Source: a virus
Reading direction: 5' to 3' (one strand)
DNA length: 37,653 bases
IMG/VR virus record: IMGVR_UViG_3300027302_000014
Coordinates: 1 to 37,653 of that record
The position numbers and the translations under genes were made by a program. The notes beneath the pieces are model-generated. The model searched no databases. It saw only the letters and a list, made by a program, of their open reading frames with translations, and was not told the origin of the DNA. Within the stretch, counting starts at the first letter, position 1. Each line of letters begins with the position of its first letter. Positions 8,028 through 35,487 of this stretch are shown one piece after another.

Positions 8028-8033
8028 TGTAAT

Positions 8034-8061
8034 CGGCAGGGGGCTTTGTGCTCCCTGTCCG
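8034..8061 (+). promoter_or_regulatory. RNA hairpin between structural genes
   Basis: CGGCAGGGGGC (8034-8044) pairs with GCTCCCTGTCCG (8050-8061), with one bulged base and one G-U pair, leaving a 5-base loop. As with the hairpin at 7590-7611, no T-tract follows and a ribosome site (TAGGAG) comes shortly after. The two hairpins bracket one gene. Confidence 0.5.
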
Positions 8062-8075
8062 TATAGGAGATTAGG

Positions 8076-8861
8076 ATGCCAGTTAACCTTACGGGTTCAA
8101 CAATTGCTAATACCTACGATCAACTGATTCATGTTGATGACGGCCCGACGGCTACTGAAAAGACAGTTTATAGCGGCACGGGAGTAGCAACGGCGCTAAA
8201 AATTAGCACTCTGTCTGCCTCGGTAGACAACATTCGTTTAGATGGCAACACCATCTCTACACTAGATACCAACGGAAATCTTGTACTAGCCCCTAACGGC
8301 ACAGGCTCAGTTACTGCGGCTAAGGTTGCAATTACTGGCGGCACAATCGCAGGCATTACGTCGCTTGAGTCTACGACGCTGGCAACGAGTGCCGCAGCAG
8401 CAGGTTGCAATCTTACCGGCAGCACATTAGCCGCAGATGGTACAGATACCAACATCAACATCAACATCACGCCCAAGGGTACAGGACAAACCCTTAGCTC
8501 TAGCAAGATGGGTTACCCCACCGGCACAGGCGGTACTGTAACGCAAGCAACAAGCCGCACCACTGGTGTTACGCTTAACAAGATTACAGGCGAGATTGTT
8601 CTATTTGCCGTTGGGCTTTCAGCAAACAACGCAGATGAATTTGTTCTAACCAATAGCACCATCGAAGCAAATGATGTAGTTAAGGTGTGCATTAAAAACG
8701 GTGGTTCGTTATCAGCAGGCACACGCAAATACTACATTACGCATGTAATTTCAATTTCTGCGGGGGCATGTATTATTTCAGTAGGTAATATTAGCGCTGG
8801 GGCTATAACCAGTGAAAGTCCAACCCTTCAGTTTGTTGTACTGAAAGGAGCGGTGGCGTAA
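8076..8861 (+). CDS. Fibre-like structural protein
   Basis: The 261-aa product has a fibre-like module: a segment with DGNTISTLDTNGNLVLAPNG and TGSVTAAKV (about residues 55-90), which is closely echoed in the tail fibre protein at 13188-14177. A second NINITPKGTG element follows at about residue 125. Such Asn/Gly/Thr turns repeat in beta-solenoid or triple-beta fibre shafts. The C-terminal half (about 165-261) is a separate globular-looking domain. It lies among head/decoration genes, away from the other tail fibre genes, so it could be a head fibre. The start has a TAGGAG ribosome site, and its stop overlaps the next start (TAATG). Confidence 0.65.
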   Translation: MPVNLTGSTIANTYDQLIHVDDGPTATEKTVYSGTGVATALKISTLSASVDNIRLDGNTISTLDTNGNLVLAPNGTGSVTAAKVAITGGTIAGITSLESTTLATSAAAAGCNLTGSTLAADGTDTNININITPKGTGQTLSSSKMGYPTGTGGTVTQATSRTTGVTLNKITGEIVLFAVGLSANNADEFVLTNSTIEANDVVKVCIKNGGSLSAGTRKYYITHVISISAGACIISVGNISAGAITSESPTLQFVVLKGAVA

Positions 8862-9572: not shown

Positions 9573-9911
9573 ATGCCCGCAGCCGCACTTGCCTTCAGCC
9601 CTCTGGGCCTCACGGTAACATTTACCGCAGCTACTACTGTCCCAACATCTGCGCAAGCTCCGTCCTCTGCCCCTACTACACGCCCAGCGTATCAGTACAG
9701 GGTACATAATGTAGGGACAGAAGTCGTACTATTAGGTGTTGGAGTAGACAATGCAACGGCTGTAGCTAAGGCAGCGTCAATTGGCGCAGGCGCAGTTCCA
9801 CTTGCTCCGGCTTCTGTTACTGTCCTCGGATTTCCAGCAGGATCATTCTTTACTGGCAAGACCGCTTCTGGTACTTCGGTAGTGTATGTAACTCCCGGTG
9901 AAGGCATGTAA
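9573..9911 (+). CDS. Small Ala/Thr/Val-rich virion protein
   Basis: The 112-aa protein is not recognised. It is hydrophobic and beta-rich, with no Lys-rich tail, a pattern common for small head or tail surface proteins. YQYRVHNVGTEVVLLGVG (about residues 41-58) looks like a beta-strand core, and PASVTVLGFPAGSFFTGK (about 80-97) like a second sheet. An AAAGGA ribosome site precedes the ATG. Its stop is followed one base later by the next start. Confidence 0.6.
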   Translation: MPAAALAFSPLGLTVTFTAATTVPTSAQAPSSAPTTRPAYQYRVHNVGTEVVLLGVGVDNATAVAKAASIGAGAVPLAPASVTVLGFPAGSFFTGKTASGTSVVYVTPGEGM

Positions 9912-9912
9912 T

Positions 9913-10092
9913 ATGACAACGGCAAATGAAGTTGAGAACAAACTAATAACGCACGAAGCAATTTGTGCAGAGCGGTACAACACGTTTATATCTCGTGTTG
10001 ACCGTTTAGAGAAACTGCTTATCAAAGCAGCAGGCACTCTCATCATGGGGATGGCGGGTGTCATTATTGCAATCGTAACCAAAGGAGTTTGA
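9913..10092 (+). CDS. Small membrane protein, XhlA/holin-like
   Basis: The 59-aa product has an N-terminal helical, charged region (residues 1-37, with ISRVDRLEKLL) and a single C-terminal hydrophobic segment (about 40-56, LIMGMAGVIIAIV) followed by Lys. This layout matches the XhlA/haemolysin-like family of small phage membrane proteins, which often assist holins; the match is by architecture only. I prefer the ATG at 9913, immediately after the previous stop, over a GTG at 9898 inside the preceding gene. It is far from the main lysis genes (18572-19570), so a virion or membrane role other than lysis is possible. Confidence 0.6.
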   Translation: MTTANEVENKLITHEAICAERYNTFISRVDRLEKLLIKAAGTLIMGMAGVIIAIVTKGV

Positions 10093-10093
10093 T

Positions 10094-10243
10094 ATGCCCA
10101 TTAAAGCAAAAGAAAAATCTTTAGACGAAATGAAAAAAGATGCTATTAAGGATAGCGTTGATGTACGCGGCTATGCCAAAGGTGGCATGGTAAAAAAACC
10201 CAGCATGAAAAAAGGCGGCGTAGTTAAGAAGGCTAAAAAATGA
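10094..10243 (+). CDS. 49-aa Lys/Gly-rich protein
   Basis: A short gene of 49 codons: MPIKAKEKSLDEMKKD at the start and a tail with YAKGGMVKK and MKKGGVVKKAKK repeats. It has a good ribosome site (AAAGGAG, 10081-10087) seven bases before the ATG and overlaps the next gene as ATGA, so it fits the operon's spacing exactly. The KGGMV/KGGVV repeats resemble short Lys-Gly segments found in many small proteins of uncultured aquatic phages. The strong positive charge suggests contact with DNA or membrane lipids, but no function is known. Confidence 0.7.
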   Translation: MPIKAKEKSLDEMKKDAIKDSVDVRGYAKGGMVKKPSMKKGGVVKKAKK

Positions 10244-10515
10244 GCAAGATGTTTATTCGGGTTAAAGCAGACGGCTTTATCTATGACTTCAATCCCATTC
10301 TGGCAAAAAATCCTGAGTGTGAAGTCGTGTCTGAAGAAGTTGCATACCCAGAACGATTCATCCCGCCTGCTGTTGTGCAACAAATTGCAGCAGAGGATAA
10401 GCCTACCGGACGTAAAAAAAGAGGTACGCTTGACCTAACGACTGCGGAAATTCCTGAAGCTCCGCCGTACACCCCACCTGAATTGGCTGAAGAAGCTGCT
10501 AGAGGTCTACCATAA
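10240..10515 (+). CDS. Hypothetical 91-aa protein, pre-adaptor
   Basis: The N-terminal half (residues 1-45) looks folded: MFIRVKADGFIYDFNPILAK, then a strand and YPERFIPP. The C-terminal half is Pro/Ala/Glu-rich and probably disordered. I know this type of sequence as an unnamed conserved neighbour of adaptor genes in related phages but cannot give a function. It overlaps the upstream gene as ATGA and is followed without gap by the adaptor ATG (TAAATG). A head-completion or connector accessory role is inferred from position. Confidence 0.65.
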   Translation: MSKMFIRVKADGFIYDFNPILAKNPECEVVSEEVAYPERFIPPAVVQQIAAEDKPTGRKKRGTLDLTTAEIPEAPPYTPPELAEEAARGLP

Positions 10516-14406: not shown

Positions 14407-17400
14407 ATGGCTGATCGCTATTGGGTAGGTGGCACAGGTACTTGGGGTAGCAGCCAAACTACCAACTGGTCTGCGGCCACTGGTTTATCTTTTACCGCTA
14501 GTTGTACAGGTACTACATTAACGACTGTTGGATCACCAGCACTTGTAGCTGGCATGACTGTATTCTCAAGTACTCATGTTTCACTTGGAACAATTGTTAG
14601 TGGTTCTGTAAATACGTGGGTTGTAACTATTGGGGGAACTTACGGTTCTCAAAGCATGAGTGCGGCTACTGTTGGTGCATCTGTGCCTACTGCGGCAGAT
14701 AACGTATTTTTTGATGCCAACTCAAATAGTGGAACAACGGCATTTACTTGCACTATGGCAAACACGCCAAGGGTCTGTAATAATTTCACAGCATCAGGCC
14801 TTGATGGCACGATGACCCTTGCTGGTACAAGTATTGCATTGAACGTATCAGGCAGTCTCACATTTCAAGCGACAAACTTTACTCGCACATATACAGGCGT
14901 AACCACATTTAATGCTACAACAACAGGAAAAACCATAACAACTAATGGTGTTGCGTTTGGTGCTGCAGTTACATTTGACGGTGTTGGGGGTGGTTGGACA
15001 CTTGGTTCTGCACTTACTATCAGCGCTTCCAGCACATCATTAACAGTTACTAATGGCACATTTGATACTTCGTCAGTAGGAAATTACGCAGTAACAGTAC
15101 CTCAATTATTTTCGAGTAATTCAAACATAAGAACAATTAACCTTAATGCGTCTACAGTTACGTTAAGTGGAATTTCTGCCATAAGTTTTGCTACACCTAC
15201 AAATCTTACATTTAACGCTGGAACATCTCAGATAAACTTTACAAGCTCGTCACATCTTGATGACATGGGCGGCCAAACATTTTATAATGTTTCGCACGCG
15301 CAGGTTAGTGGATTTGTTCAAATATCTAGTACGGCTACATACAATAACCTAACATTTGCAAGCAGAACATCTGTTGGACTTGGGCGATTTACTTATAGCG
15401 ACAACCAAACAATCAATGGGATATTCACCATAGGCGCTGGTACTACGGCATCTTGTCGCTATTTTATTAACAGTAGCATTATTAGTGTACCACGCACATT
15501 TACTTGTGCATCTATTGCCGCAATGTCTGATGTTGACTTTAGAGATATAACTATTGCTGGCGCACATGGCACGCTGTCAGGCACTCGACTAGGCGACTGC
15601 AAGGGAAACACCAATATAACTTTTCCTGCGGCTAAGACTGTTTACTATAGGCAAACAGGTTCTGCTGATTGGGGTACTACAGGTTCAGGTTCTTGGTCTG
15701 CTACATCCGGTGGTGCATTAGACGCAACCATGTTTCCATTGGCGCAAGATACTGCGGTATTTCCTGCGGCAACTTATCCTGCATCTGGTTCAACGACAAC
15801 CATAAACGGTGAGTACAACGTTGGCACAATAGATATGTCGTTGAGAACGACAAACACCATGACGTTGGCATCAGCGGCAAATACATTATCAATTTATGCT
15901 AATTTTATTACTGGCACTGGTATTACGCTAACAAGCACAACCGCATACCAGTTTAGTGGACGCACAACACAACAAATTACAAGTGCTGGCAAGACTTTTC
16001 CAGCGGGTATGTTTATAAGTAGTCCGGGTGGAACTGTTATCTTGCAAGACGTTTTTACAACAGGGTCAACGGTTACAACAACACTATCGAGAGGTACGTT
16101 AGACTTAAACAACTTTAAACTAACCACGGGGTTATTTACCTGTACCAGTCCGGGCACCAACCCCACAAGGGCAATTGCGTTCGGTACAGGAAATATTACT
16201 TGTACAGGTACAGGTAGTGTGTGGCTTTGTGGAACAGCTACAGGGCTTACTACAACTGGAACTCAAGTAGTTAACGTAACTAGCGTAGGCTCTACTGCTA
16301 TAACTGTAACGCCCGGAGCCATGGCGGAAATAGACTCTATCAGTTTTAACTTTACTGGTGGAACTTATCCGCTGGCGTTTTTACCAAACTCAGGTAATGC
16401 TGCAAAAAATGTTAACTTTACTGGTTATGCCGGTACGTTGGCGGCAATGTCTTCTGGAGTAATTTACGGCAACCTAACGCTTTCTTCAGGCATGACACTG
16501 ACTGCATCAATACAAACATTATCATTTAGAGCGACAAGCGGAACAAAGACTATTACAACAAACGCGAAGACATTAGATTTTCCAGTTACGTTTAACGGTA
16601 CTGGTGGTACATGGCAACTTCAAGACGCTCTTACAATAGGCGCTACAAGATTAACAACACTAACCCTAGGCACGTTAGACCTAAACAATCTAACACTAAG
16701 CACAGGTAATTTTTTCGGTAGCGGCGCAGGCACGAGAGCAATTGCGTTCGGTACAGGAAATATTACTTGTACAGGTACAGGTACTGTGTGGACTACGGCA
16801 ACAGCTACAGCGCTTACTACAACTGGAACTCAGGTAGTTAACGTAACGAGTACGGGTTCTACTTCCATTATTGTTAATACGGGTACATTGTCTGAAACAG
16901 ACTCTATTAGTTTTAACTTTACTGGTGGGACTTATAGTTTACAGTTTTTAAGTACGTTTGGCGATACAGCGAGGAACGTAAATTTCACTGGTTATGCTGG
17001 AACATTGTTTACAACTGGTAATAGTACTATTTTTGGCAACCTAACGCTTTCTTCAGGAATGACATTGTCTGCATCAGGAAACCCGATACTATTTGGCGCA
17101 ACAAGTGGAACAAAGACAATTACAACAAACGCGAAGACATTAGATTTTCCGGTAAACTTTAATTGTCCGGGGGCTACATATCAAATACAAGATGCAATAA
17201 CATTTGGCTCAACTAGAAATACAACTTTTACAGCAGGAACTGTAGATTTTAACGGGCTTACATGGACAACTGGAACTGCATCTTCGCAGGGAAACGCCGC
17301 AAGAAATCTTACATTTAACGGTGGAAGTTTAATAATTGTTGGCTCTGGGTCAACTGCTTGGAATGTAACAGGTGGGTCAGGATTTACAACAACAGCAGGA

Positions 17401-17844
17401 ACAGGGGTAGGCACGATCTCTATGACTGCCGCAACTGCCAAGACGTTTGTGGGTGGCGGCTATACATACAACTGCACAGTTAACCAAGGTGGGGCTGGTG
17501 CTTTGTCTATTGAAGGTTCAAACACATTCAGCAACATAACCAATACTGTCCAGCCAGCATCAATCTTGTTTACAGCAGGGACAACAAGCACGTTCAGCAA
17601 CTTTAGTTTGTCGGGCACAGCAGGAAACCTGATAACCATTGGCTCGATAACCGCTGCAAGCCATACGCTATCCAAAGCAAGTGGTACTGTGTCTGTTTCG
17701 TTCTGCTCAATCAGTAGGTCAAATGCCACTGGCGGTGCAGACTGGGAGGCGTTCACTGCGGCTCCCTATTTAAATACAAACGGCGGTAATAATACGGGTT
17801 GGGACTTTGGATCGACCGGTAATTTCCTAGCATTTTTTCTGTAA
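14407..17844 (+). CDS. Large repeat-containing fibre/adhesin-like virion protein
   Basis: The 1145-aa product is almost wholly Thr/Ser/Gly/Asn-rich and beta-strand forming, with hardly any charged residues: a beta-helix or repetitive adhesin type. It begins with RYWVGGTGTWGS...TNWSA (residues 4-22) and has a second version of this cap, DWGTTGSGSWSATSGG, near residues 418-435. A roughly 190-residue unit is duplicated in tandem (about residues 563-754 and 755-943), each with IAFGTGNITCTGTG, ISFNFTGGTY, VNFTGYAGTL, NLTLSSGMTL and KTITTNAKTLDFPV. It ends in a YLNTNGGNNTGWDFG motif typical of the C-terminus of such proteins. GGAG overlaps the previous stop and serves as ribosome site. A host-binding or virion surface role is inferred. 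Confidence 0.75.
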   Translation: MADRYWVGGTGTWGSSQTTNWSAATGLSFTASCTGTTLTTVGSPALVAGMTVFSSTHVSLGTIVSGSVNTWVVTIGGTYGSQSMSAATVGASVPTAADNVFFDANSNSGTTAFTCTMANTPRVCNNFTASGLDGTMTLAGTSIALNVSGSLTFQATNFTRTYTGVTTFNATTTGKTITTNGVAFGAAVTFDGVGGGWTLGSALTISASSTSLTVTNGTFDTSSVGNYAVTVPQLFSSNSNIRTINLNASTVTLSGISAISFATPTNLTFNAGTSQINFTSSSHLDDMGGQTFYNVSHAQVSGFVQISSTATYNNLTFASRTSVGLGRFTYSDNQTINGIFTIGAGTTASCRYFINSSIISVPRTFTCASIAAMSDVDFRDITIAGAHGTLSGTRLGDCKGNTNITFPAAKTVYYRQTGSADWGTTGSGSWSATSGGALDATMFPLAQDTAVFPAATYPASGSTTTINGEYNVGTIDMSLRTTNTMTLASAANTLSIYANFITGTGITLTSTTAYQFSGRTTQQITSAGKTFPAGMFISSPGGTVILQDVFTTGSTVTTTLSRGTLDLNNFKLTTGLFTCTSPGTNPTRAIAFGTGNITCTGTGSVWLCGTATGLTTTGTQVVNVTSVGSTAITVTPGAMAEIDSISFNFTGGTYPLAFLPNSGNAAKNVNFTGYAGTLAAMSSGVIYGNLTLSSGMTLTASIQTLSFRATSGTKTITTNAKTLDFPVTFNGTGGTWQLQDALTIGATRLTTLTLGTLDLNNLTLSTGNFFGSGAGTRAIAFGTGNITCTGTGTVWTTATATALTTTGTQVVNVTSTGSTSIIVNTGTLSETDSISFNFTGGTYSLQFLSTFGDTARNVNFTGYAGTLFTTGNSTIFGNLTLSSGMTLSASGNPILFGATSGTKTITTNAKTLDFPVNFNCPGATYQIQDAITFGSTRNTTFTAGTVDFNGLTWTTGTASSQGNAARNLTFNGGSLIIVGSGSTAWNVTGGSGFTTTAGTGVGTISMTAATAKTFVGGGYTYNCTVNQGGAGALSIEGSNTFSNITNTVQPASILFTAGTTSTFSNFSLSGTAGNLITIGSITAASHTLSKASGTVSVSFCSISRSNATGGADWEAFTAAPYLNTNGGNNTGWDFGSTGNFLAFFL
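16093..17235 (+). repeat. Tandem 567-576 bp coding repeat, two copies
   Basis: Copy 1 spans about 16093-16668 and copy 2 about 16669-17235. Three anchor strings recur exactly 567 bases apart: GCAATTGCGTTCGG (16171 and 16738), AACCTAACGCTTTC (16471 and 17038) and GAACAAAGAC (16541 and 17108). Copy 1 has nine extra bases near its start. Long near-identical stretches suggest a fairly recent duplication or continuing exchange between copies. A third, shorter and more diverged relative starts at 17236, and an older one lies near 14930-15080. Confidence 0.9.
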
Positions 17845-19570: not shown

Positions 19571-22006
19571 ATGTCAGCGATTAAGATCACCAACTTTCTC
19601 GGCACGGCTCCCAAGATAAGCCCGGAGTTGTTGCCGAACACGGCTGCGCAGATTGCAAACAATTGCAAGCTGTACTCGGGTGATCTTATTCCTTACCCAC
19701 AACCTGTTGTTGTTGACAACACAGCCCGCACCGGCACAATCAAAACGCTGTTTGCGCTACGCGACCCCGCGACCAACGCAAAGAAATGGTTGTCATGGCT
19801 TACTGATGTAGACATTGCTGTTGCATCTAAGACCGACAAAGACGAGCAGCGGTTTTATTATTCCGGCGATGGAGCGCCTAAAATTAGCAACTACGAGTTG
19901 GCAACTGCTGGCGCGGCTCCGTACCCAGTAACGTACTACGACTTAGGGTTACCGTTACCAACTACGGTGCTTACAACAGCGTCAACAACATTTACAACAA
20001 AGACAACAACAAACTTTTTTCGTGACGCTGGCAATACTGTAACAATTACAACCAGTGCACCACATGATTTAGCGTCCGGTAGATCAATTTCACTGACAGC
20101 GTTTACTTTTTTGTCGGGAACATACAACCAAGCGGGCACAACTACAATTAATATGACCATTACCGCTCACGGGTTAGCAAATGGTGCGTCAATTGCGCTT
20201 GATTTTTTATCCGGCACAGCTACAGACGGGACATACACAGTCAGCAATGTGGCAACAAATACATTTGACGTTATAGCCGTTTCGTCAGCTACCACTAGTG
20301 GAAATGTTAATTTAAACCTTGCGGGTTTTAACGCAACCAACGTAGAGTGTACTGTCACAAGCACCACTACGTTTACGTACTTCAGCCCCGGTTTTCAGAT
20401 CGGATCATCAGCTACACCTATTGCGTTTACGACTGCCAAGGTTGATCTTGGTGGTTTAACTCAAGCGCGTTCCTACGTCTACACGTGGTACACACCGTGG
20501 GACGAAGAATCTATTGCATCTGAACCATCTGACAATTTGTTTATCAAAGAAGGACAGATTGTCACGGTATCAAATTTGCCAACGGCTAAACCTACTGGTG
20601 ATAACTTTGTGCGTGGTGTAAAACTCTATCGCACTTTAGCAACGACATCGGGCACAGATTATTTTCTGCTCCGTGAACTGTGGTTCCCCACTACCTTAGC
20701 GTCTGTAGAACGAACCAGTAATGTGTCTCGTGTAGCTTTAGTCTTTCCGCACAATCTTGGCCTTGATGATCGCTTTAAAATTAGTGGCTGCACTGTGGCT
20801 TCGTTCGATATTACGGGTGGCATTGTCACTGATGTCATTGATGACTACACCTTTGAATACGCGCAGACGGCTGGGGATGTTGCGAACACACTGGTAGTTG
20901 CGGGTACGATGTATCACGACGTTTCAGAAAATCCGCCGACTACAACTGCACGATATTGGGGCGATGGTAGCTATGACTTTACAGATGACTTTGAGTCTCG
21001 TGATTTATTTAGCATCCTCAGCACTGATGAATTTGATCCGCCGCCTGAAGATTTGCAAGGGCTGACTGCCATCCAGAACAACATTCTTGTGGGATTCGTT
21101 GGCAACACTTTGTATTTCTCTGAGCCGGGTGCACCACACGCATGGCCTGAAAGATACTCAGTTAACCTTGAGCATAATGTTGTGGGTATTGCTGCGATTA
21201 ACGGCTCTGCATTGGTGACAACAGACTCATATCCGTTCTTTGTGTCGGGGTCTGACCCTGCCAACGGCATGTCCACCCAGCGTATTGATGCTAACTTTCC
21301 ATGCCTGAGTAAGAACAGTATGGTGACGATGGGTTACGGCATTGTGTACTCTACACACGACGGACTGGCGGTCTACGCTGTTACCGCTGGAACAGCTATC
21401 ATCACTAAGTTGCTGTACAACAATGACACATGGACATCCGCGCTTGATCCGACAACTGTCATTGCTGAGTACTACGGTGATAACTATTTTGCAGCGCACT
21501 CAACCGGGGCGTTTATCTTCGAGCAAGATGCCAAGGCCGGTGGGTTTTTTGTAGATGCTGACTACACTTTTACCGCTTCGTACTACGATTCTATTGACGG
21601 TGTTGTGTATTATGTTAGTGGTGTAAACGGTGACATCTATGAATGGGACGACTTAGACCAACCGGCTACAACTATGGAGTGGAAGTCAAAAGTCATTACC
21701 ACCAAAGGCATGATCAACCTTGGCGCAGCACGTGTTGTAGCTGACTACACTACAGTGTCGACGGTATGGGATTCATCGGCATCGGTATGGGAATCTGTAA
21801 CTAGTATCTGGGATGCTGCTGACAACATTACGTTTTACCTGTGGGCAAACAAAGAACTTGTATTGACAACAACTGTCTCGGACTCTAATGTGTTTCGATT
21901 ACCTACTGGGTATCGCACAGATAAGTTTGAGGTTAGCGTAGAAGGCGACATCCGGATTCGTGCTATCTATTTAGGGGAAACTCCCCTCGGACTGCGAGAG
22001 ATGTGA
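19571..22006 (+). CDS. Tail nozzle / tail tubular B-like protein
   Basis: The 811-aa protein is the likely nozzle of a short tail. It begins ITNFLGTAPKISPELLPNTAAQIANNCKLYSGDLIPYPQP (residues 5-44), a segment I associate with nozzle-like proteins of uncultured podovirus-like phages, and then continues as a long beta-rich chain. Residues about 150-275 hold two similar Thr/Asn-rich beta units (each with a hallmark SAPHDL or TAHGL, LSGT, NTFDV or TTFTY), and a third related unit lies around 380-450; these look like inserted surface domains. The C-terminal half (about 450-811) has Trp/Tyr/Gly-rich strands suiting a propeller. The last codons overlap the next gene (TGATG). Confidence 0.75.
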   Translation: MSAIKITNFLGTAPKISPELLPNTAAQIANNCKLYSGDLIPYPQPVVVDNTARTGTIKTLFALRDPATNAKKWLSWLTDVDIAVASKTDKDEQRFYYSGDGAPKISNYELATAGAAPYPVTYYDLGLPLPTTVLTTASTTFTTKTTTNFFRDAGNTVTITTSAPHDLASGRSISLTAFTFLSGTYNQAGTTTINMTITAHGLANGASIALDFLSGTATDGTYTVSNVATNTFDVIAVSSATTSGNVNLNLAGFNATNVECTVTSTTTFTYFSPGFQIGSSATPIAFTTAKVDLGGLTQARSYVYTWYTPWDEESIASEPSDNLFIKEGQIVTVSNLPTAKPTGDNFVRGVKLYRTLATTSGTDYFLLRELWFPTTLASVERTSNVSRVALVFPHNLGLDDRFKISGCTVASFDITGGIVTDVIDDYTFEYAQTAGDVANTLVVAGTMYHDVSENPPTTTARYWGDGSYDFTDDFESRDLFSILSTDEFDPPPEDLQGLTAIQNNILVGFVGNTLYFSEPGAPHAWPERYSVNLEHNVVGIAAINGSALVTTDSYPFFVSGSDPANGMSTQRIDANFPCLSKNSMVTMGYGIVYSTHDGLAVYAVTAGTAIITKLLYNNDTWTSALDPTTVIAEYYGDNYFAAHSTGAFIFEQDAKAGGFFVDADYTFTASYYDSIDGVVYYVSGVNGDIYEWDDLDQPATTMEWKSKVITTKGMINLGAARVVADYTTVSTVWDSSASVWESVTSIWDAADNITFYLWANKELVLTTTVSDSNVFRLPTGYRTDKFEVSVEGDIRIRAIYLGETPLGLREM
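21973..21987 (+). other. Short perfect hairpin before a start codon
   Basis: AGGGGA (21973-21978) and TCCCCT (21982-21987) form a 6-bp stem with a 3-base loop. It lies inside the end of the nozzle gene, 18 bases upstream of the next start codon (22006). It could tune translation of the downstream gene, but it also encodes protein and may be chance. Confidence 0.35.
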
Positions 22007-25101: not shown

Positions 25102-27480
25102 ATGAACTTAGGACAATTCCTCAGTAACGCAGGTGCAACTGCGACCAGTATGCGAGCGGCTGAAGAATCCGAACGTGTAGCACAAGAGAATCAATTAAAA
25201 ATTGAGGAGCAGAATCGCTTCGCTGCATTCAAAGCCAAGATGGCACAAGATGCTGCTAGACAAAGACCCCAAATATCTGCCCCTCAGTTTCAAACAACTT
25301 TAGACTCTGCTCCATTTAGTCAATCAGACCGATTGTCAGTGGATGTTTTACCTCCTCCTGCCGCTGCACCTGCACCCGCACCTGCTGTATCTGTTTCTGC
25401 TGCCCCTGCTGCAAATGATGGTTTACCTATGCGTCGCATGAGTCCTGAGGAATGGGCAAGGCTTAACCAACAAGCTGCTAATAGACCGACAAGCGCAATG
25501 TCGCAGTATGAATTTCAATCGTTAACTCCAGCGCAACGGCTACGTCGTCTCCAAGATGAAAACGACCGCCGCGCACTTATACGACTTGATGCAAATGTTG
25601 CAAAACCGCCTGCTGCTTTGTTTGATGTTATGGCGCTGCCCTATACCGGCTCCGCTGCCCTACTAGAAAAAGGATTGAACGCTGTTGACTTTGCCCGTGT
25701 AGGGCGAGCCGCTGGTTTTTACGATCCTGATGTTACAAGTGTCACGATCCCCGGTGCAGAGTCAATTACGCCATTTTATGATCGCCTTCGTAGAGCCGAA
25801 AATGCAAACCAACCATTGACTGAGAAACAACTCCTTGAGCAACTCAAAGAACAAGACGCTAAAACAATTAAACGAGTACAAGGAAAACAGACAAAAGAAA
25901 GTCAAGCTGCACCTACTAAACCCAGCAAAGCTGCGCTGTCCTATGACAACAAGGTCACGCCATACGATGCACTCATCCAACAAAGTGCAATTCAGTACGG
26001 CATTGATCCTGTAGTGTTTAAGCGGTTGCTTGGCACTGAGTCATCGTTTAACCCAACAGCAGTCTCCCCACGTGGCGAGAAGTTTGGTCTGGGCATTGCG
26101 CAGATTGCTAGTTCGCACGGTCTAAGTCGTGAACAAAGACTTGATCCCAATATTGCTATCCCTGCTGGAGCGCAGATATTTGCAGCGATGCTAAAACAAG
26201 CTGGTGGTAACTACGAGTTAGCTCTCCAGCGATACAAGGGTGCGTCTAGTGAAAAAGGCAAAGCCGCAATGGCTGGCCCAATTGACATTATTTTGTCTGG
26301 ACTAGTATCGTCAGCACAAGCTGCTCCTCCTCCTGCTACGGCAGTACGCCCCGGCGGTAATATGACAGAGGCACAGATTGCAGCACTACAAGCAGACCCG
26401 TTGGCGCTTAATAAAAATCCACCTGCTACGGCAGTACGCCCCGGCGGTAATATGACAGAGGCACAGATTGCAGCACTACAAGCAGACCCGTTGGCGCTTA
26501 ATAAAAATCCACCTGCTCCTGCCGCTGCTCCTGCCGCTGCTCCTGCCGCTGCTCCTGCCGCTGCTCCTGCCGCTGCTCCTGCCACCGCAACTGTGGTACG
26601 CACGGACGCAGACTTTTACCTTGGTAACCCACAGTCTATCCCGTATGAGTATCAGCAGTTATCACGAGCGTACCAACAAGTAGCATCACAGGCTCAAGAG
26701 GAAGCAAACCTTGTAACCCAGCAGCGTAACGAGACGGCTCGTCTTGCACAAATGTATATGCAAAGTGGGACAACCGCTGGCATTGATACTGCCATGCGAA
26801 TGCGCGATGCGATAAACAATTACGATATTCAACTACTTAAACTTAGACAAGGTGTCAGCAACGAACAGCTAAAAGTTACGCAAGGGCGTGTGTATCTTGA
26901 GGGTATGCAAGGACTCCAAGAGCTTGCTCTTACTAATGATCCGCGTCGCCTTGCCTCTGTGTGGTCACAGTACGCAGGTGTGCCTATTGGTATCCAGCCT
27001 CGCTCAGACGGTACGTTTAACATTATGGTCAACGGTAAGAAAACCAAAGAAGGTGTTACCCCGTTTGAACTAAGTAACAGTGCACGACTGGCGTTTGATC
27101 AAACTTACCGTCAGCAACAAGCTGCTGCGGGTGCAGAGATGACCAAGTTTATGACGCAAGAACGGTACAAGTCTATGTACAAGATTCAGGAAGGTAATGC
27201 TTCTGAGTTGGCTAAGATGATTAGAGAAATTACAGTTGAGCGGACAAAAAATAATGGTGCATTAGCTTTGGAATGGGCAAAGGCTAACTTCGACTGGGAC
27301 ATTAAGCCTACAGGAGCCGGAGACGGCACTCTTATCATAAAACCCCCTAATAGTGCGCCGTACGTGTATAACCCAACGGGTACAACAGTAAAAATAGACA
27401 ACATTGAGATAAAATCAAATGCCGCACAGTTAATTAGCGGCTTGCCTATTCCGACGCAACAAAGACTCAATGCACAGTGA
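25102..27480 (+). CDS. Internal virion protein with lytic transglycosylase domain
   Basis: The 792-aa protein combines a soluble lytic transglycosylase (SLT) domain with long helical parts. The SLT domain (about residues 285-395) shows GTESSFNPTAVSP, with Glu313 as the probable catalytic acid, followed by FGLGIAQIAS and LDPNIAIPAGAQIF, as in Slt/LysM-type enzymes. It would cut a small hole in peptidoglycan during DNA ejection. The N-terminal 270 residues are charged/Gln-rich with a Pro-Ala linker (about 90-110). After the SLT come a duplicated 30-residue segment and a (PAAA)n linker (about 411-495), then a helical C-terminus (about 510-680). A ribosome site AAGGAAA precedes the ATG. Confidence 0.85.
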   Translation: MNLGQFLSNAGATATSMRAAEESERVAQENQLKIEEQNRFAAFKAKMAQDAARQRPQISAPQFQTTLDSAPFSQSDRLSVDVLPPPAAAPAPAPAVSVSAAPAANDGLPMRRMSPEEWARLNQQAANRPTSAMSQYEFQSLTPAQRLRRLQDENDRRALIRLDANVAKPPAALFDVMALPYTGSAALLEKGLNAVDFARVGRAAGFYDPDVTSVTIPGAESITPFYDRLRRAENANQPLTEKQLLEQLKEQDAKTIKRVQGKQTKESQAAPTKPSKAALSYDNKVTPYDALIQQSAIQYGIDPVVFKRLLGTESSFNPTAVSPRGEKFGLGIAQIASSHGLSREQRLDPNIAIPAGAQIFAAMLKQAGGNYELALQRYKGASSEKGKAAMAGPIDIILSGLVSSAQAAPPPATAVRPGGNMTEAQIAALQADPLALNKNPPATAVRPGGNMTEAQIAALQADPLALNKNPPAPAAAPAAAPAAAPAAAPAAAPATATVVRTDADFYLGNPQSIPYEYQQLSRAYQQVASQAQEEANLVTQQRNETARLAQMYMQSGTTAGIDTAMRMRDAINNYDIQLLKLRQGVSNEQLKVTQGRVYLEGMQGLQELALTNDPRRLASVWSQYAGVPIGIQPRSDGTFNIMVNGKKTKEGVTPFELSNSARLAFDQTYRQQQAAAGAEMTKFMTQERYKSMYKIQEGNASELAKMIREITVERTKNNGALALEWAKANFDWDIKPTGAGDGTLIIKPPNSAPYVYNPTGTTVKIDNIEIKSNAAQLISGLPIPTQQRLNAQ
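26332..26511 (+). repeat. Perfect 90-bp tandem duplication
   Basis: Two identical 90-base copies (26332-26421 and 26422-26511) each begin CCTGCTACGG and end AAAAATCCA, adding an extra 30-residue unit (TAVRPGGNMTEAQIAALQ plus DPLALNKNPP) in frame. No base differs between the copies, so the event is recent or maintained by slippage, or it is an assembly artefact. The unit sits in a linker, where length changes cost little. Confidence 0.95.
26515..26583 (+). repeat. 12-bp minisatellite encoding a Pro-Ala linker
   Basis: GCTCCTGCCGCT occurs five times in a row (26515-26574), plus a partial unit to 26583, coding for APAA repeats. It directly follows the 90-bp duplication. Such in-frame repeats commonly change copy number by replication slippage and would lengthen or shorten a flexible linker. 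Confidence 0.9.
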
Positions 27481-27489
27481 GGTAATTTA

Positions 27490-30400
27490 ATGGCAACAGC
27501 AGGACTCTCCTTTGCAAACCCCATGCTTGAACGCATGGGTGTAGGTGAAGAACCAAACCCATATGTGCCATACAGCCCAACGTCAGATATTGGGATGGGT
27601 GGTCTTGCTCCGTCTGCTGCTGATATGGCTGTTATGGGGCAGGCTTTAGTTAAGCAAAGCCAGTTCACCATGCCGGAGATGCGGCAACCCCCGTCTATTG
27701 CGTTCAGTCCTTCATCTAAACAGTTGTTTGTTAACGGTATAACCTTTGACGCTGACGATGCAGCTACTGCTTTGCAGTCTGAGTCCTACCTACAAAACCC
27801 CGGTACGGGTTTACCCCGAGGCGGCGACTGGGTTTCACTTGACGAGCAAGCTTACGGTCAGTTCCTTAACTCAATTAAAAATCCCAGCATGGGTCGTCTA
27901 GCGTCCAAGAACTTTGGCATTGGTATCGACAACATGCAGATGCTCGCTGGTCGGGCACTACAGTTAGGCGGCGCTGAGAAACTTGGTGGGTCTATTGTCG
28001 AGCAGCAACAGGAAGATATAGGGAAAACCCTACCGTTCCAACGTCAGTTCACGGACATTGGCTCCAAGCCATATGGTCAGAGCCGTGGTGTTCTTGACTG
28101 GTTTGTAGCTAACCTTGCCCAGCAAGGGCCAAACATAGTAGAGTCAGTAGTCACTGCTGCCGCAGGTTTCGTTGGTGGTTCTGCTGCCGCTGGCCCTCTT
28201 GGTAGTGTCCCCGGTGCACTTGCAGCTTTGGCTGGTAAAGCAGAAGCCAAGCAAGCCATTCTTGCTGCGGCAAAGAAGTACGCAGCAGGTCAAGCTACCA
28301 AAGAAGAACTCAAAGTCCTGAGTAATGCCGCTGGTGTTCTTGGTGCAGCGACTGCTTCATTGGCACAGAACTACGCAACTGGCGCTGCTGACATCTATGG
28401 TGAGCAACGTGACCAAGGTGCTGGCGCAGATGATATGGGTGCTCGTATAACTGCTTTGATGGGTGCTTTCCCCTACGCTGCGATGGAGACATTGCCAGAG
28501 TTCCTGCTTGCCAGACGAGTGCTTGGCGGCAGCAAAGGTATTGGTTCAACCTTGGGCATGGCTCCCGGTGCTACACGCTTACAACGCGGTGCTGGCTATG
28601 CTGGTCGTGCGGCAGTTGGTGGCGCAGTTGGTGGCACTGCTGAAGGTACTACAGAACTTGTGCAAGAAGGATTGCTCCTTGGTTTATCTGGACAGGACTT
28701 CTCTGACCCTGAGAATGTAAACCGGCTGATTAACTCCTTTGCCGCTGGCTTCGGAGTGGGTGGCCCGATTGGTGCGATTGCCAACTTAAAGGGCACAGCA
28801 CCCGCCAACATCCTTACTGGGGGAAATACTGACCCCACTAATAAAGAAACAGGTGGCGGCATTGCCCCATACAACCCACCTCCTGCACCCCCCGGTCGTC
28901 AATACACCGACGTAGAGTTCATGGGGTCTACCCCTCCACCCTCGGCTGGATTGGGTGGCCCAAGCCCAACTACGCCACAACTCCCCGGCCCTACTCCTCC
29001 TGTATCTCCAGTGGGTGGGCCAGTCATCATGGCTGGCATGGGGCCAAACGCTGCGGATGTAACACGACAAGATGTTTTGCTGCGTCAGCAAGGTAACGTC
29101 CCGCCCGGCGCAACACCCGGCTCACAGGGCGTGCTAGATATTTTTGGTGGGACTATTCCTGCGCAAGAGTTGGCTGCACGTATGCAACCACAGCAACCGC
29201 TTCCCGGACTGCCTGCACCATCTGCTGCCCCTACGGCTGATCCTCGCCAAGGTGCGTTGCAGTTCAGTGGCGCAGCCCCTCAAGGCCCAACCAACCCTAT
29301 CTTGGCGCAAAGACTGCAAGCTGCTCTTGCATCACAACAACGTGCACAAGAATTCCAAGCTGCGCAGGCACAGCGGGCCGCCCAAGATGAGGCAACCAAG
29401 CAGCAACAACTTGATAGATTGCAGAACGAGGCTCGAATCCAGCAGCAGTTGGATTTGATAACGCAATCTCAGCAACCTGTTCCGCAGTCAATGCCGATGC
29501 GTCCAGTCCCTGTTCCTCAACCTCGACAACTCCCACTGTTCAGACGCGGTGAGTTGCCCCGGCCTTCACGTGCTGAAGGATTGCGTCGTGGCGTAGGTAC
29601 ACAGACACCCGCAACACAAGTGCCTGCTCCCCCTCCCACTGCTGGCGAATTCCAACGTGCCGGACAAGGCATCTTGTTTAATCAACAGGGGCAACCGTCT
29701 TTGCAAGCACTTAAAAGTGCAGGCAAAAAACAACCACTACCTAAGCCCACTGTGGCAAAAGGTGTCACTCAGGCAAAGCCTACTGGTAAACCCGTAAGTG
29801 CTGTCACTGTGGCAAAGGCCGTGTCCAATCTGAAAAAGGGAGCACCAAGTGCCGTTCAAAAGCCAAGCGCAAAGAGCGTGGATGTACCAAAACAAACCGG
29901 AGATGGCAAAGGAGTTCGAGTCGAAGACCAAGCCGGAGACCAAGCTGCCGGAAAGGGTAAAGCCCTCAAAACCACAGCGAAAAAGCAAGAACCCACTGTA
30001 CAAACTGTAACCAGCAAGCTGGTTGAACGTATCAACAAGGGTGCGTTTGGTGGCCCCACTGGTGCACTTGGAGAAAGACTCAAGCAAGGAAAGACACCCC
30101 AGCCCCCAAAGGCCGAGGCGGCAAAACCCGCCGCCAAACCAAAGGTTGAGAAGCTGAGTCCTGCCGAGGCATGGGAGGACATGAAACCGGAAGGCGGCGT
30201 AGCGTACAACACGCTCTCAGATGAACAGAAGAAACGCTGGGCAACTGAGAACTACTACGACCGTGCCAACATGCAGTTGGCTGACGAGATCAATGCTCAG
30301 GCTACACCACTACCTGAGGAAGAACTGGCAGACTTGTCTTACATGGAGTTGTTGGACGAGGATATTGCCACGGCAGAATCCACCACAGATACAAGTGCGT

Positions 30401-33400
30401 TCCGTGATGCGATTGAGAACATCATGTTCCATGCCTACTTTGATACTGAATCCAACAATGAAAAAGTTATTGATAAAGCACAGATGTTCTTGATTGAGAC
30501 TGGCTTCACTGAAGATCAGCGTGGCATCATGGACACTGCGTTGTTGGATGTCGTCAATGATCGACTAAAAATTGAAACTACGTACAAAGAGGGTAATCTA
30601 AAGGGCACACTCAAACCTTGGTTTACCTATGCGCAGATGCGCAACTTACTCCCAAGCATTGGAACAAAACTCACTGGGTTGTCTGATACGCAAGTGGCTG
30701 AGTTGTTGCAAGCTCGCCAGATCAGTGAGCAAAACGTACCTGTATCTGTTTACAAGAAGTACAAGACCTCGCTGCCTGCTAGTGAGTCAGTCGTCAATAC
30801 CAAGAAGGTCACCTCACTTAACCGCATTGTTGACCAGTCTGGTGCAAAGATGGCGAACCTGATCCGCGATTTGGTAACTCGTGTTAGGGAAATCCCTACG
30901 CTGACCAAAGAAATAGTATTTGGTTCTGAGCGTTTCGCCAATATTAAAGCACTGACCAAGCAGTTGTACAGTGAACTCGATGAAGCTGGTCGCAACTACA
31001 TGTTGCCTGACGGAAGCAAAGTCAAAGACTACTTCAACGACAAGGGCGAGGCTAAGCTAATCAAGTCTGATGGTCGCTACATCCTAAGCCAAGTTGAACT
31101 CACTGAAGAACAGCAACGTGCCCGTGAGATAGAGCGCCGTGAGGAGTTGCGTGCATTAGGTGAAGCAGCCGCAGCAGAGTCAAAGGCAGAGCAAGATGTT
31201 ATCAATGCCCGCAAGCGTGGTGCACGTGGTAGCGAGACAGTACAGGCTTGGGATAAACCCGAAGGTAACTTCTACCGTGACGATGGCACACCTATGGGTT
31301 CTGCCATTCCATTAGGGCGTGTGAAGTTGCTGGTCAAAGGTTTCTTGGCAAAGCTAAAGATCAAGCCTACTGTTTATGTGTACGCCAATGTTGCTGACCT
31401 ACAGGCTCGCAACCCTGAGTTGTATCAGCGTGCTGCTGCCGCTCGTAAGCAAGGTGACTTCGACACAACCAACGCCGTGGGTTACTCCTTCGGCCCTGAG
31501 GTCATAATCTTCTCTGACTTTGTTCGTACTGAGCAACAGTTGAAGTTTGTACTGGCTCACGAAACCATTGGTCACTTTGGTTTCAAAGGTGTGATGGGTC
31601 AGTCTGAGTTGAACAAGGTACTGAATCGTATATATCAAACTGACCCTGATGTGCAGGCCGCAGTAGATGCAATGGTCGAGACCCAAGGAATGGATAGGCT
31701 GGAAGCCATAGAGGAATATCTGGCTGACAACGCTGCTGACCTAGATGTATCAATCATCGCAAGGCTATGGAACGCCTTGAAGAACGCCCTGAACAAGCTT
31801 GGTTTCAACTTCAAAGACGACGAAGCCCGTCAACTTGTTAACCTCGCACGCCGCTACGTGCGTGAAGGCAACACAGGAAACTTCTTCAGCGCCTCATCCT
31901 TTGTGGGCAACATGGAGGACATGGAACAAGCAGTAACGGACGGTAAGTACGCACGTAATTTTGCTGGCAACATCGGCTCACGTGGCATGGCAATGAACGC
32001 CTTGAATCGTAGGTTCGGCCCCGGCGCTGGTATGTTTGGGTCGATGGACGCCTTCCAGAAGGGTCTGTTCGGCAAGACAGGAGATGTTGGTGTAAACGTA
32101 GGCAAGATACTTGAGAAGGTGCAGACCCTCGACAACATGGCACGTAAGAGCTATGGCCTTAATCAGATATTCCGTATCTTTGAACAACGAAGTCAGAAGG
32201 CTCGCGCTCTACTCTCCAAGTACTCACGCTACATGGCGTTCACCAACACACCACGTGTGTTTGGATTTGGTGATGGTGTGTCTGAGGAGGAAAAACAACA
32301 AGCTGGTGAACTTGCTGCGTACGCTGCATTGTTCAAGTCACGCCAGTTAACCGACGATTTGTTAGAGTCGTATGGCTCTATGATTACTAAAGACGCAATG
32401 GGCAATGTCACTGTTGACCCGCGTGTGCTTGATGAATTGGAAAAAGCAGGTACTGTCACTGCGGAAGAATTCCGTAAGGGCTTTGATGTGGAACTTGGCA
32501 CTGGCGAGAAGATCAGATACCAGTTTGATGTTGATGAGAACAGCCCTGTGTGGCGTGTCTACACCGAGATGCATGATACTGTAAACGTCGCAGCAATAGA
32601 CTTGCTGCTATCAAACTACGAAGCATCTCAAGCAGAACAGCAGCGGGTGTTCGGTGAAATTGCTGGTATGAAAGGACTCAAGGCTGAGTTCTCTGCACAA
32701 GACCTTGCTGCCATTCGCAAAGTAATTGAGATGTATCAGAACATGCGCTACGATAAAAGTGGCGTTGCAAACGCTTCTGTTGATGTACAGAAAGCGGCAG
32801 ACGAAAAATCTAGTTACTTTGTATATCAATTTGGTCGTGCGCTATTCAATGACCTTGCGTTTGCCGCATGGATGGGCGATCCCAAAATTGTGGGTGACAT
32901 GAAAAAAGACTTTGAGGAATTCCAGAAGGCTGAGTACGACGACATTCGTGCCGCCATTCCTTCAATACGTGACAAAATCCGCACTGAAAAACAAGCCTTT
33001 GCAATTCAGAAAGCTGTGGAAGACATCTTCTTGTTTGACATGCAGACACGCAACGCAGAGTTTTACGCAAAGCGCACCATCCTTGGTTCATACGTTCCGT
33101 TCAGCCGCCGTGGTGAGTACCAAGCTAGGCTGGCAGCGTTCAATGCTCAAGGTGACCCAGTACGTTTGGATGAAAACATCCGTGATGCTATGCCCTACTT
33201 CCAGTTTGAGACTGAGAGTGAAGCAACCGCTGCACGCGAGGCATTGGAGAATGAGTTTGGCAATGGGCAAGAGTGGACTCTTAAAGATGAGTACGGTGCA
33301 GAGATCAAAGTAACTTTGCGTGCCGAATCTTCAGAAGCCTCAGTTAGCCCATCTTTAACTGAAGCCGTGAACTTCAATGAGTTCATCTATGTGCTGAACC

Positions 33401-35487
33401 GCTTGAACGTAAATATCACGCCAACCGCACGTGAACGTATTGTCAAGACACTGACGAATCAGAACGACCGTGCTCGTAAGAACCTACAGCGTAGTGGGAA
33501 CCCCGGATGGGACAGCGACATTGTGCGTTCTGTGTCTGAGCACTTAGAGATGGTTGCCCACATTGCCGCCAAGAAAATCTATCGCCATCGCCTTGATGAC
33601 ATCATGCTAAACGAATCGTCATGGCTCGGTGACCCACAGAAACTCAAGGACTTGCAAGCTGCTGTTGATGCAGCCACTACTGATGGACAACGTGTTAGAG
33701 CGCAGCGTGCATACGATGAGTATGCGTTCATGTATAAGTACATGGCTCCTAAAGCTGCTGGTGTCACAGTCAATGGTGAACCTACATTGGGTCAAGGCAA
33801 ACGCTATCTTGAAGAAGCCAAGAAACTTATCCGCTGGTACAACGACTCATCTAATATTAACGACAGCACCGAGGATATGTTGTCGGGCGAGGCTGGCTCA
33901 TTCTTAAAACTGATTACTGTGTTGATGCAGTTGGGTGGTTCGGTTGCATCCGCAGCCGTGAACTTCGTATCTCTGCTTACCCACAGTACACCATACCTGT
34001 CCTACTACAACGCTAAGCGCGGATACGGAGGTGGTTATGGAGAGGCCAAAGCCGTGACCTCCCTCTACCGTGCTGCCCTTGATGTAGGCAGTCCTAAGCT
34101 GGAAGATGCTGGGTTCTTAAACGACTTGTTGATCAATGCCAACTATGGTGACTACGGCTTAACCGCAGACGAAACACAATTTTTGTTTGACACCACTGAG
34201 GAAGGCACACTGCAAGCGGCTCAGTTCAACGCACTGGTCGGTACAGCACGTGGCAAGATATTTAACAACAAAGCACAGGCGGGTATCAAGGCATGGATGG
34301 CTATGTTCTCTTATACAGAACAGGCTAACCGCCGCATCACTGCACTAGCAGCGTACCGACTTGAAAAGGAACGTGCGCTATCACAAGGGTTGAGTGAAGA
34401 ACAAGCAATCGCTGAAGCTACTGAGGCAGCACGGATTGCGGTCAACACATCGCAAGGTGAGTACGCCATGTTTAACCGACCTGAGATGGCACGTGGTAAC
34501 GTGGCTCAGTACGTGTTTATGTACAAGCAGTTCGTAATCATCACCGTCCAACTACTGCGCAACATGCCAGTTCGTGGACAGTTGTTGATGCTTGGCTTAC
34601 TGTTGCTGATGAGTGGTCTGAAGGGCATACCATTTGCAGATGACCTCGCTGATATTGTTGACACAATCGCACAGATGCTTGGTCTAAAGACGGCAAGCAT
34701 CGAGAAAGCTACTGCTGAATGGATTGATAGTGTGGCTCCGGGGATGTCGCCGTATGCCATGCGTGGTCTGATTGATAGTGCAGTCGGTGCGACTGTCTCG
34801 ACCCGCTTGGGTATGGGTGATTTGATTCCATTGACTGGTGCGCTTAAAGCTGGCGCAGACCCTGCACGTGAGTTTGGCGACTTTGCTGGCCCTGTATTTA
34901 GCGGTATCGGTGGGCTGGTATCAATGGCGGGTGGTTTGGCTAAGTATGGTGCAGAGATAACGGGCCTGCGTGATGACACAACATCCTTCAACACATTGAT
35001 GCGAGAGTCTCCTGTTGCCTTTCTTCGGTCTGTCGGGGATAGCCTTGCATACTTGTCGAGCGGTGACATTACGAACGTACGTGGTCAGATGGTTGCCAAG
35101 GATGCACAAGCGCACGTGATTCTTGCCCGATTACTTGGCTTCTACCCAGCAATCGCCACTCAGCAGAACGACATTGTTCGTATGTCTAAGCAAGTCAATG
35201 AGTACGGCAAAGCAATCAAGGCAGAGTATGTTGCTGCTTATGTGAAGGCTCGGGCTGCCGGTGATCAAGAGGCAACAGATAATGTTGTATCCGCAGTAAG
35301 CCGGTGGAATGAAGATTCCAAGGGTACAGGTTTGGAGATTACCAAGTTCTTAAAATCTGCCAATCGTGCGTACATTGAGTCTCAGCGTCCAACTGTACTG
35401 CGTTACATGAAGTCAGCGCCGAAGTCTATGCGTCCCGAGACTATGGAGTTGTTAAGACTCTATGGACTCGACGACGAGATTGAATAA
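27490..35487 (+). CDS. Giant internal virion protein with HEXXGH metallopeptidase-like domain
   Basis: The 2665-aa product closes the ejection block. Visible parts in order: Gly/Ala-rich hydrophobic stretches (about 213-255 and 372-400); a Pro/Gly/Gln linker (about 464-600); a Gln-rich coiled coil (about 604-664); a Lys/Ala/Pro-rich stretch (about 754-920); charged helices; and a zinc-peptidase-like centre with AHETIGHFGF (His1357, Glu1358, His1362) and EEYLAD about 52 residues later. Next are long helical regions, and a late hydrophobic segment with QLLMLGLLLLMSGLKGIPFADD (about 2355-2385), which resembles LPD38-type domains of large polyvalent phage proteins. A helical end follows. It is far longer than T7 gp16. 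The ribosome site GAGGT overlaps the previous stop. The family links rest on motifs only. Confidence 0.75.
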   Translation: MATAGLSFANPMLERMGVGEEPNPYVPYSPTSDIGMGGLAPSAADMAVMGQALVKQSQFTMPEMRQPPSIAFSPSSKQLFVNGITFDADDAATALQSESYLQNPGTGLPRGGDWVSLDEQAYGQFLNSIKNPSMGRLASKNFGIGIDNMQMLAGRALQLGGAEKLGGSIVEQQQEDIGKTLPFQRQFTDIGSKPYGQSRGVLDWFVANLAQQGPNIVESVVTAAAGFVGGSAAAGPLGSVPGALAALAGKAEAKQAILAAAKKYAAGQATKEELKVLSNAAGVLGAATASLAQNYATGAADIYGEQRDQGAGADDMGARITALMGAFPYAAMETLPEFLLARRVLGGSKGIGSTLGMAPGATRLQRGAGYAGRAAVGGAVGGTAEGTTELVQEGLLLGLSGQDFSDPENVNRLINSFAAGFGVGGPIGAIANLKGTAPANILTGGNTDPTNKETGGGIAPYNPPPAPPGRQYTDVEFMGSTPPPSAGLGGPSPTTPQLPGPTPPVSPVGGPVIMAGMGPNAADVTRQDVLLRQQGNVPPGATPGSQGVLDIFGGTIPAQELAARMQPQQPLPGLPAPSAAPTADPRQGALQFSGAAPQGPTNPILAQRLQAALASQQRAQEFQAAQAQRAAQDEATKQQQLDRLQNEARIQQQLDLITQSQQPVPQSMPMRPVPVPQPRQLPLFRRGELPRPSRAEGLRRGVGTQTPATQVPAPPPTAGEFQRAGQGILFNQQGQPSLQALKSAGKKQPLPKPTVAKGVTQAKPTGKPVSAVTVAKAVSNLKKGAPSAVQKPSAKSVDVPKQTGDGKGVRVEDQAGDQAAGKGKALKTTAKKQEPTVQTVTSKLVERINKGAFGGPTGALGERLKQGKTPQPPKAEAAKPAAKPKVEKLSPAEAWEDMKPEGGVAYNTLSDEQKKRWATENYYDRANMQLADEINAQATPLPEEELADLSYMELLDEDIATAESTTDTSAFRDAIENIMFHAYFDTESNNEKVIDKAQMFLIETGFTEDQRGIMDTALLDVVNDRLKIETTYKEGNLKGTLKPWFTYAQMRNLLPSIGTKLTGLSDTQVAELLQARQISEQNVPVSVYKKYKTSLPASESVVNTKKVTSLNRIVDQSGAKMANLIRDLVTRVREIPTLTKEIVFGSERFANIKALTKQLYSELDEAGRNYMLPDGSKVKDYFNDKGEAKLIKSDGRYILSQVELTEEQQRAREIERREELRALGEAAAAESKAEQDVINARKRGARGSETVQAWDKPEGNFYRDDGTPMGSAIPLGRVKLLVKGFLAKLKIKPTVYVYANVADLQARNPELYQRAAAARKQGDFDTTNAVGYSFGPEVIIFSDFVRTEQQLKFVLAHETIGHFGFKGVMGQSELNKVLNRIYQTDPDVQAAVDAMVETQGMDRLEAIEEYLADNAADLDVSIIARLWNALKNALNKLGFNFKDDEARQLVNLARRYVREGNTGNFFSASSFVGNMEDMEQAVTDGKYARNFAGNIGSRGMAMNALNRRFGPGAGMFGSMDAFQKGLFGKTGDVGVNVGKILEKVQTLDNMARKSYGLNQIFRIFEQRSQKARALLSKYSRYMAFTNTPRVFGFGDGVSEEEKQQAGELAAYAALFKSRQLTDDLLESYGSMITKDAMGNVTVDPRVLDELEKAGTVTAEEFRKGFDVELGTGEKIRYQFDVDENSPVWRVYTEMHDTVNVAAIDLLLSNYEASQAEQQRVFGEIAGMKGLKAEFSAQDLAAIRKVIEMYQNMRYDKSGVANASVDVQKAADEKSSYFVYQFGRALFNDLAFAAWMGDPKIVGDMKKDFEEFQKAEYDDIRAAIPSIRDKIRTEKQAFAIQKAVEDIFLFDMQTRNAEFYAKRTILGSYVPFSRRGEYQARLAAFNAQGDPVRLDENIRDAMPYFQFETESEATAAREALENEFGNGQEWTLKDEYGAEIKVTLRAESSEASVSPSLTEAVNFNEFIYVLNRLNVNITPTARERIVKTLTNQNDRARKNLQRSGNPGWDSDIVRSVSEHLEMVAHIAAKKIYRHRLDDIMLNESSWLGDPQKLKDLQAAVDAATTDGQRVRAQRAYDEYAFMYKYMAPKAAGVTVNGEPTLGQGKRYLEEAKKLIRWYNDSSNINDSTEDMLSGEAGSFLKLITVLMQLGGSVASAAVNFVSLLTHSTPYLSYYNAKRGYGGGYGEAKAVTSLYRAALDVGSPKLEDAGFLNDLLINANYGDYGLTADETQFLFDTTEEGTLQAAQFNALVGTARGKIFNNKAQAGIKAWMAMFSYTEQANRRITALAAYRLEKERALSQGLSEEQAIAEATEAARIAVNTSQGEYAMFNRPEMARGNVAQYVFMYKQFVIITVQLLRNMPVRGQLLMLGLLLLMSGLKGIPFADDLADIVDTIAQMLGLKTASIEKATAEWIDSVAPGMSPYAMRGLIDSAVGATVSTRLGMGDLIPLTGALKAGADPAREFGDFAGPVFSGIGGLVSMAGGLAKYGAEITGLRDDTTSFNTLMRESPVAFLRSVGDSLAYLSSGDITNVRGQMVAKDAQAHVILARLLGFYPAIATQQNDIVRMSKQVNEYGKAIKAEYVAAYVKARAAGDQEATDNVVSAVSRWNEDSKGTGLEITKFLKSANRAYIESQRPTVLRYMKSAPKSMRPETMELLRLYGLDDEIE

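Follow-up and report, generated by a model that had tools for sequence, protein, structure and literature searches.

A predicted HEXXXH zinc metallopeptidase domain inside a giant, putatively ejected protein of a podovirus-type virus record

The middle part of a 2665-aa protein encoded in the window (the whole stretch of DNA analysed, 37,653 nucleotides, corresponding to a single virus record of podovirus type) very probably folds as a zinc metallopeptidase of the HEXXXH gluzincin type, as found in the polyvalent giant virion proteins of phages. The domain occupies residues ~1261-1440, and an intact-looking zinc peptidase site within it is supported, proteolysis itself being a predicted activity. 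The presence of a zincin-like domain with HEXXXH and a later Glu in a giant phage protein, put forward by the sequence-only reading, is borne out by conservation, predicted fold and gene context. The kind of enzyme is not new, since a paper of 2017 (PMC5512222) already describes HEXXXH metallopeptidases as parts of injected polyvalent proteins. The domain is so far without any covering Pfam model.

The giant gene and the genes that define its setting are the following:

27490..35487, plus strand: open reading frame of the giant protein (2665 aa), which closes the virion/ejection gene block.
33916..35337, plus strand: C-terminal 'PLxRFG/tail-700' domain of the giant protein, residues 2143-2616 (NCBIfam NF032893.0, 179 bits, cut-off 100).
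25102..27480, plus strand: internal virion protein with an SLT transglycosylase domain, directly upstream of the giant gene.
19571..22006, plus strand: internal virion protein (PHROG 511, E 8e-118).
921-2306: terminase (Terminase_3).
2802-4862: portal protein of SU10 type.

The giant protein is matched by NCBIfam NF032893 'PLxRFG' (E 1e-52) and by PHROG 11358 (E 1e-43), PLxRFG being the only domain matched in it and the NCBIfam match being confined to the C-terminal part. The protein encoded directly upstream matches Pfam SLT (1e-11) and PHROG 342, 'internal virion protein with endolysin domain' (4e-14), and a convergent primase/helicase-like gene lies 3' of the giant open reading frame. About 20 relatives share this succession of genes (internal virion protein, SLT protein, giant protein, convergent primase), which speaks for a virion role of the giant protein. 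Taking into account its conserved place after the SLT internal virion protein, it is most likely that the giant protein is packaged and then ejected with the DNA; it has been argued that polyvalent proteins of such a kind are injected in this way (PMC5512222). The same window also contains, at 14407-17841, a 1145-aa open reading frame that has no match in Pfam or PHROGs.

The putative active site and the structural elements around it are located as follows:

31270..31809, plus strand: zincin-like metallopeptidase domain, residues ~1261-1440, delimited by the conserved block, the AlphaFold2 model and hhalign to M48 and MATCAP.
31480..31512, plus strand: two-stranded hairpin GYSF-GP-EVIIF, residues 1331-1341 (model residues 65-68 and 71-75), placed before the active helix as in the zincin core.
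31558..31575, plus strand: HETIGH, residues 1357-1362, with H1357 and H1362 as predicted zinc ligands and E1358 as predicted general base.
31711-31728, plus strand: EEYLAD, residues 1408-1413, in frame in the giant open reading frame.
31714..31716, plus strand: E1409, second Glu of EEYLAD, the predicted third zinc ligand.

Both motifs described by the sequence-only reading, HETIGH (H1357, E1358, H1362) and EEYLAD (E1408, E1409), are thus present at the residues given for them in the 2665-aa open reading frame, with E1408 and E1409 lying 51 and 52 residues, respectively, after H1357. HEXXGH did not occur in any of 5000 shuffles of the giant protein. EEXXAD alone is uninformative, because a second segment of this form, EEELAD, recurs at residue 943 (window 30316-30333) in a poorly conserved region.

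When the window protein was compared over its full length with 17 homologues, some of them found with LAHE as bait, H1357 and H1362 were the sole invariant His/Cys among 2665 positions. In the same comparison, the best-conserved 30-aa windows (mean identity of at most 80%) start at residues 1326-1340, and no other part of the protein is as conserved as the stretch beginning near residue 1329. Scanning with the region returned close relatives, and 50 loci came from an alignment scan. Among 34 sequences of 35-96% identity, A-H-E, G-H, a further G and the two Glu of the EE pair never vary; after the addition of prophage relatives and two cultured phages, AHExxGHxG, E1409 and A1415 are still invariant, while E1408 and the D of EEYLAD vary. 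Across 66 domains, with identities as low as 18%, E1409 is invariant, and E1408 and the D of EEXXAD are not. Several of these sets had been baited with, or selected by, HE or HExxGH, so the invariance of HE/HExxGH in them is to some extent built in; this does not apply to E1409. As the motif-baited sets are biased, the search was repeated with the C-terminal domain as the only bait, leaving the motif out, and in this independent scan HExxGH and the EE pair were kept in 16/16 relatives reaching the region. When 274 genomes were searched with a profile of the whole domain, six more prophage copies came up, all six with HExxxH and five of the six with HExxGH. Forms of HEXXXH without the Gly are HEIIVH, in phage PTXU04, and HESRAH, in a prophage (L187). 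Regarding the loss of the site in homologues, which the sequence-only reading had named as evidence against it, His, Glu, His and the EE pair are retained throughout the set found without the motif as bait, although E1408 varies in the wider family. Judged from this conservation, the putative HETIGH site is more than a chance motif.

The AlphaFold2 model of residues 1267-1466, built with 66 sequences, reached a pLDDT of 78.9 and a pTM of 0.74, the blocks with the HEXXXH helix and the Glu helix having a pLDDT of ~80. It begins with a helix (1275-1286), a strand (1294-1298) and the two hairpin strands (1331-1334 and 1337-1341), and continues with a helix carrying H1357, E1358 and H1362 (1348-1368), two more helices and a helix carrying E1409 (1403-1417). 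The zincin core of polyvalent proteins has been described as a helix, three strands, the HEXXXH helix and a C-terminal Glu helix (PMC5512222); the order of elements in the model is the same, with extra helices between the last two. The predicted ligand and base residues are conserved and lie in model elements appropriate for a gluzincin, that is, two His and a Glu in the HE helix and a downstream Glu. An earlier model, based on 34 sequences, was of lower quality (pLDDT 69); searched against the PDB, it gave no significant match, PPEP-3, lethal factor and MATCAP being among the weak ones.

Foldseek comparison of the better model with the PDB gave no significant match, the top two being human MATCAP (E 0.15 and 0.62). 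Against predicted viral structures, 12 matches at E < 0.001 were obtained, four of them titled 'large polyvalent protein associated domain-containing' and one belonging to Escherichia phage PTXU04; among the weaker viral matches are Peptidase M48, SprT-like and lethal factor entries.

The 66-sequence profile was compared with peptidase families by hhalign, using shuffled-column controls. With M48, it gave a probability of 87% and a score of 44.9 (control maximum 19.2), and with MATCAP/DUF1704 (PF08014) 47% and a score of 35.2 (control maximum 20.6); in the latter alignment HExxxH and ExLA are both in register, E1409 standing opposite the Glu of ExLA. The comparison with MPTase-PolyVal PF18818 remained at noise level (0.6%, score 17.3, control 17.9), and neither PF18818 nor PF08014 has a Pfam match in the giant protein. 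A Pfam scan of the whole protein found nothing, and scans of its pieces gave sub-threshold matches only, for example to Baculo_PEP_C and, weakly, to M48. PDB sequence searches returned nothing relevant, and the P1 and N4 genomes contain no match to the domain profile. The same domain was found in prophage proteins together with ART-PolyVal, LPD1, LPD39, InPase and DarB-like regions. In a search of the literature on phage HEXXXH or ejection metalloproteases, the only relevant items were Iyer et al. 2017 (PMC5512222) and a preprint on the N4 virion RNA polymerase.

With respect to mechanism, conservation and fold suggest that H1357, H1362 and E1409 would bind zinc and that E1358 would activate a water molecule. 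The best candidates for a substrate are the giant protein, which the peptidase would cut from within, and the ejection proteins that partner it; such cutting, at the time of virion assembly or upon entry into the cell, would leave the modules free to act separately. Iyer et al. favour the processing of the polyvalent protein itself, citing the cleavage of P1 DdrB before packaging (PMC5512222); however, the zincin-bearing N4 virion RNA polymerase is packaged uncut (PMC5512222), which counts against self-processing. No cleavage site was identified in the giant protein. A substrate of this kind, self or partner, has in our estimation a little short of an even chance of being the right one.

Natural gene splits bear on this point, the relevant feature being:

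29842..30108, plus strand: low-complexity linker, residues ~785-873, at which the gene is split in two lineages (L024/L176 and L170).

In the comparison with 17 full-length homologues, conservation in this linker is among the lowest of the giant protein. In both lineages the N-terminal module is a gene of its own and the peptidase site is intact in the C-terminal piece; in L176 (197-11569) and L170 (3-11569), 3-4 kb of other open reading frames, some of them decoration-like, lie between the gene halves. With this natural split falling upstream of the zincin domain, the two halves can work as separate chains, and since the site is kept where the gene is already split, the separation of N- and C-terminal modules cannot be the only role of the peptidase. 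Frame breaks in another relative (L036), a metagenome contig, resemble frameshifts and were dropped as evidence of processing. A broader proposal would make the zincin a general processing enzyme of the podovirus ejection apparatus, cutting giant and partner proteins at set points while ejection proceeds or afterwards, with the split-gene lineages representing one cut made at the DNA level; we regard this generalisation as speculative and improbable.

Alternatively, the zincin could enter the cell with the DNA and cut a host protein early in infection, for instance a component of defence, transcription or the envelope. This role is listed among the possible ones in PMC5512222, and it would be in line with the strong conservation of the site, even in lineages that encode the N-terminal module separately, and with the ADP-ribosyltransferase and antirestriction-type regions adjoining the domain in relatives. 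However, the domain is conserved alongside structural virion parts across very different phages, so a virion-internal substrate fits at least as well; a host protein as the substrate is thus rather unlikely, if still a serious candidate. A further alternative is that the zincin fold is only structural, for example as a scaffold of the ejection apparatus, binding metal but having no peptidase activity. In favour of this idea, the activity of the domain is a predicted one, and passages of PMC12633501 on the C1 domain (HExxH) of the N4 virion RNA polymerase report no protease activity for it. Nevertheless, the scan without motif bait shows the general-base Glu to be as invariant as the ligands, whereas its loss in some lineages would be expected of a scaffold, which makes a purely structural role quite improbable.

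The proposal of the sequence-only reading that the domain is an M49 (dipeptidyl peptidase III-like) peptidase is almost certainly wrong and was rejected, in spite of the HEXXGH spelling and of an EEXXAD segment 51-52 residues later: PF03571 has no match in the record at E 10, and hhalign gave 3.2% with the true HEXXGH set (three sequences, hence of limited power) and 1.4% with a wider set of 37, which did no better, scores being 20-22 against a shuffled control of 20.9 and both motifs being left unaligned. HEXXGH and EEXXAD are both present throughout the close family of the window protein, but in the wider family the Gly of HEXXGH and the first Glu and last Asp of EEXXAD vary, only the second Glu being kept. 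EEXXAD is no M49 signature, because ExxAD-like segments also appear in the M48 sequences compared. Moreover, the conserved unit has ~180 aa, against a large two-lobed fold in M49 (Pfam model of 548 positions), and no M49 structure is found among the 50 Foldseek matches listed. Thus, of the comparison with M49 and other gluzincins proposed at the outset, the zincin topology and the likeness to M48 and, more weakly, to MATCAP stand, and the relation to M49 does not.

The HEXXXH gluzincin assignment corrects a tempting M49 label and, for a class of proteins usually annotated as 'PLxRFG' or 'hypothetical', makes a firm comparative case that the peptidase site is intact. It also brings in PTXU04, a phage of E. 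coli in culture, where self-processing by the peptidase versus action on the host could be tested by a single point mutation. Its protein PTXU04_00025 (QBQ76639.1, 2197 aa; gp25), annotated as a hypothetical protein, carries a homologous domain (profile E 2e-16) with H1161, E1162 and H1166 in HEIIVH and E1223 in EEVLALAAE, and it differs from the window protein in having HEXXXH without the Gly.

Other arrangements of the domain were observed as well. Dolichospermum phage Dfl-JY45 (L012, PP438435.1) has three zincin copies in three separate large open reading frames:

55255-55800 of PP438435.1: first zincin copy.
70807-71289 of PP438435.1: second zincin copy.
77119-77562 of PP438435.1: third zincin copy.

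A 4808-aa prophage-like open reading frame from a Rhodanobacteraceae assembly (L073) contains tandem copies, both with HExxGH, at 7889-8626 and 9740-10477. In Pseudomonas phage F116, p60 (L290, 6536-11485) has the C-terminal domain in common with the giant protein and shows HEMIH, an HEXXH motif, after a similar strand segment; this region is possibly the same domain minus the extra residue (hhalign 33%, hmmsearch insignificant).

Among cellular peptidases, M48 resembles the domain in its N-terminal helix, strands and HE helix, which align with it, but has the canonical HEXXH, and the best Pfam M48 match among 34 members has an E of 0.0023, the window sequence being below the cut-off. MATCAP/DUF1704, comprising tubulin carboxypeptidases and their bacterial relatives, is likewise an HEXXXH gluzincin with ExLA as third-ligand motif; however, its inter-motif spacing is shorter, it is a free-standing cellular enzyme, and the similarity, at 47%, is remote. 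The C1 domain of the N4 virion RNA polymerase is also a zincin in a giant ejected podovirus protein, but with HExxH and no profile match. The closest resemblance in design is to the HEXXXH polyvalent MPTases of Iyer et al. 2017 (PMC5512222), which have, like the window domain, an HEXXXH helix and a later Glu helix and lie, like its relatives, inside giant phage proteins beside LPD and ART domains; motif and context suggest that the window domain belongs to the same clade as this HEXXXH subset.
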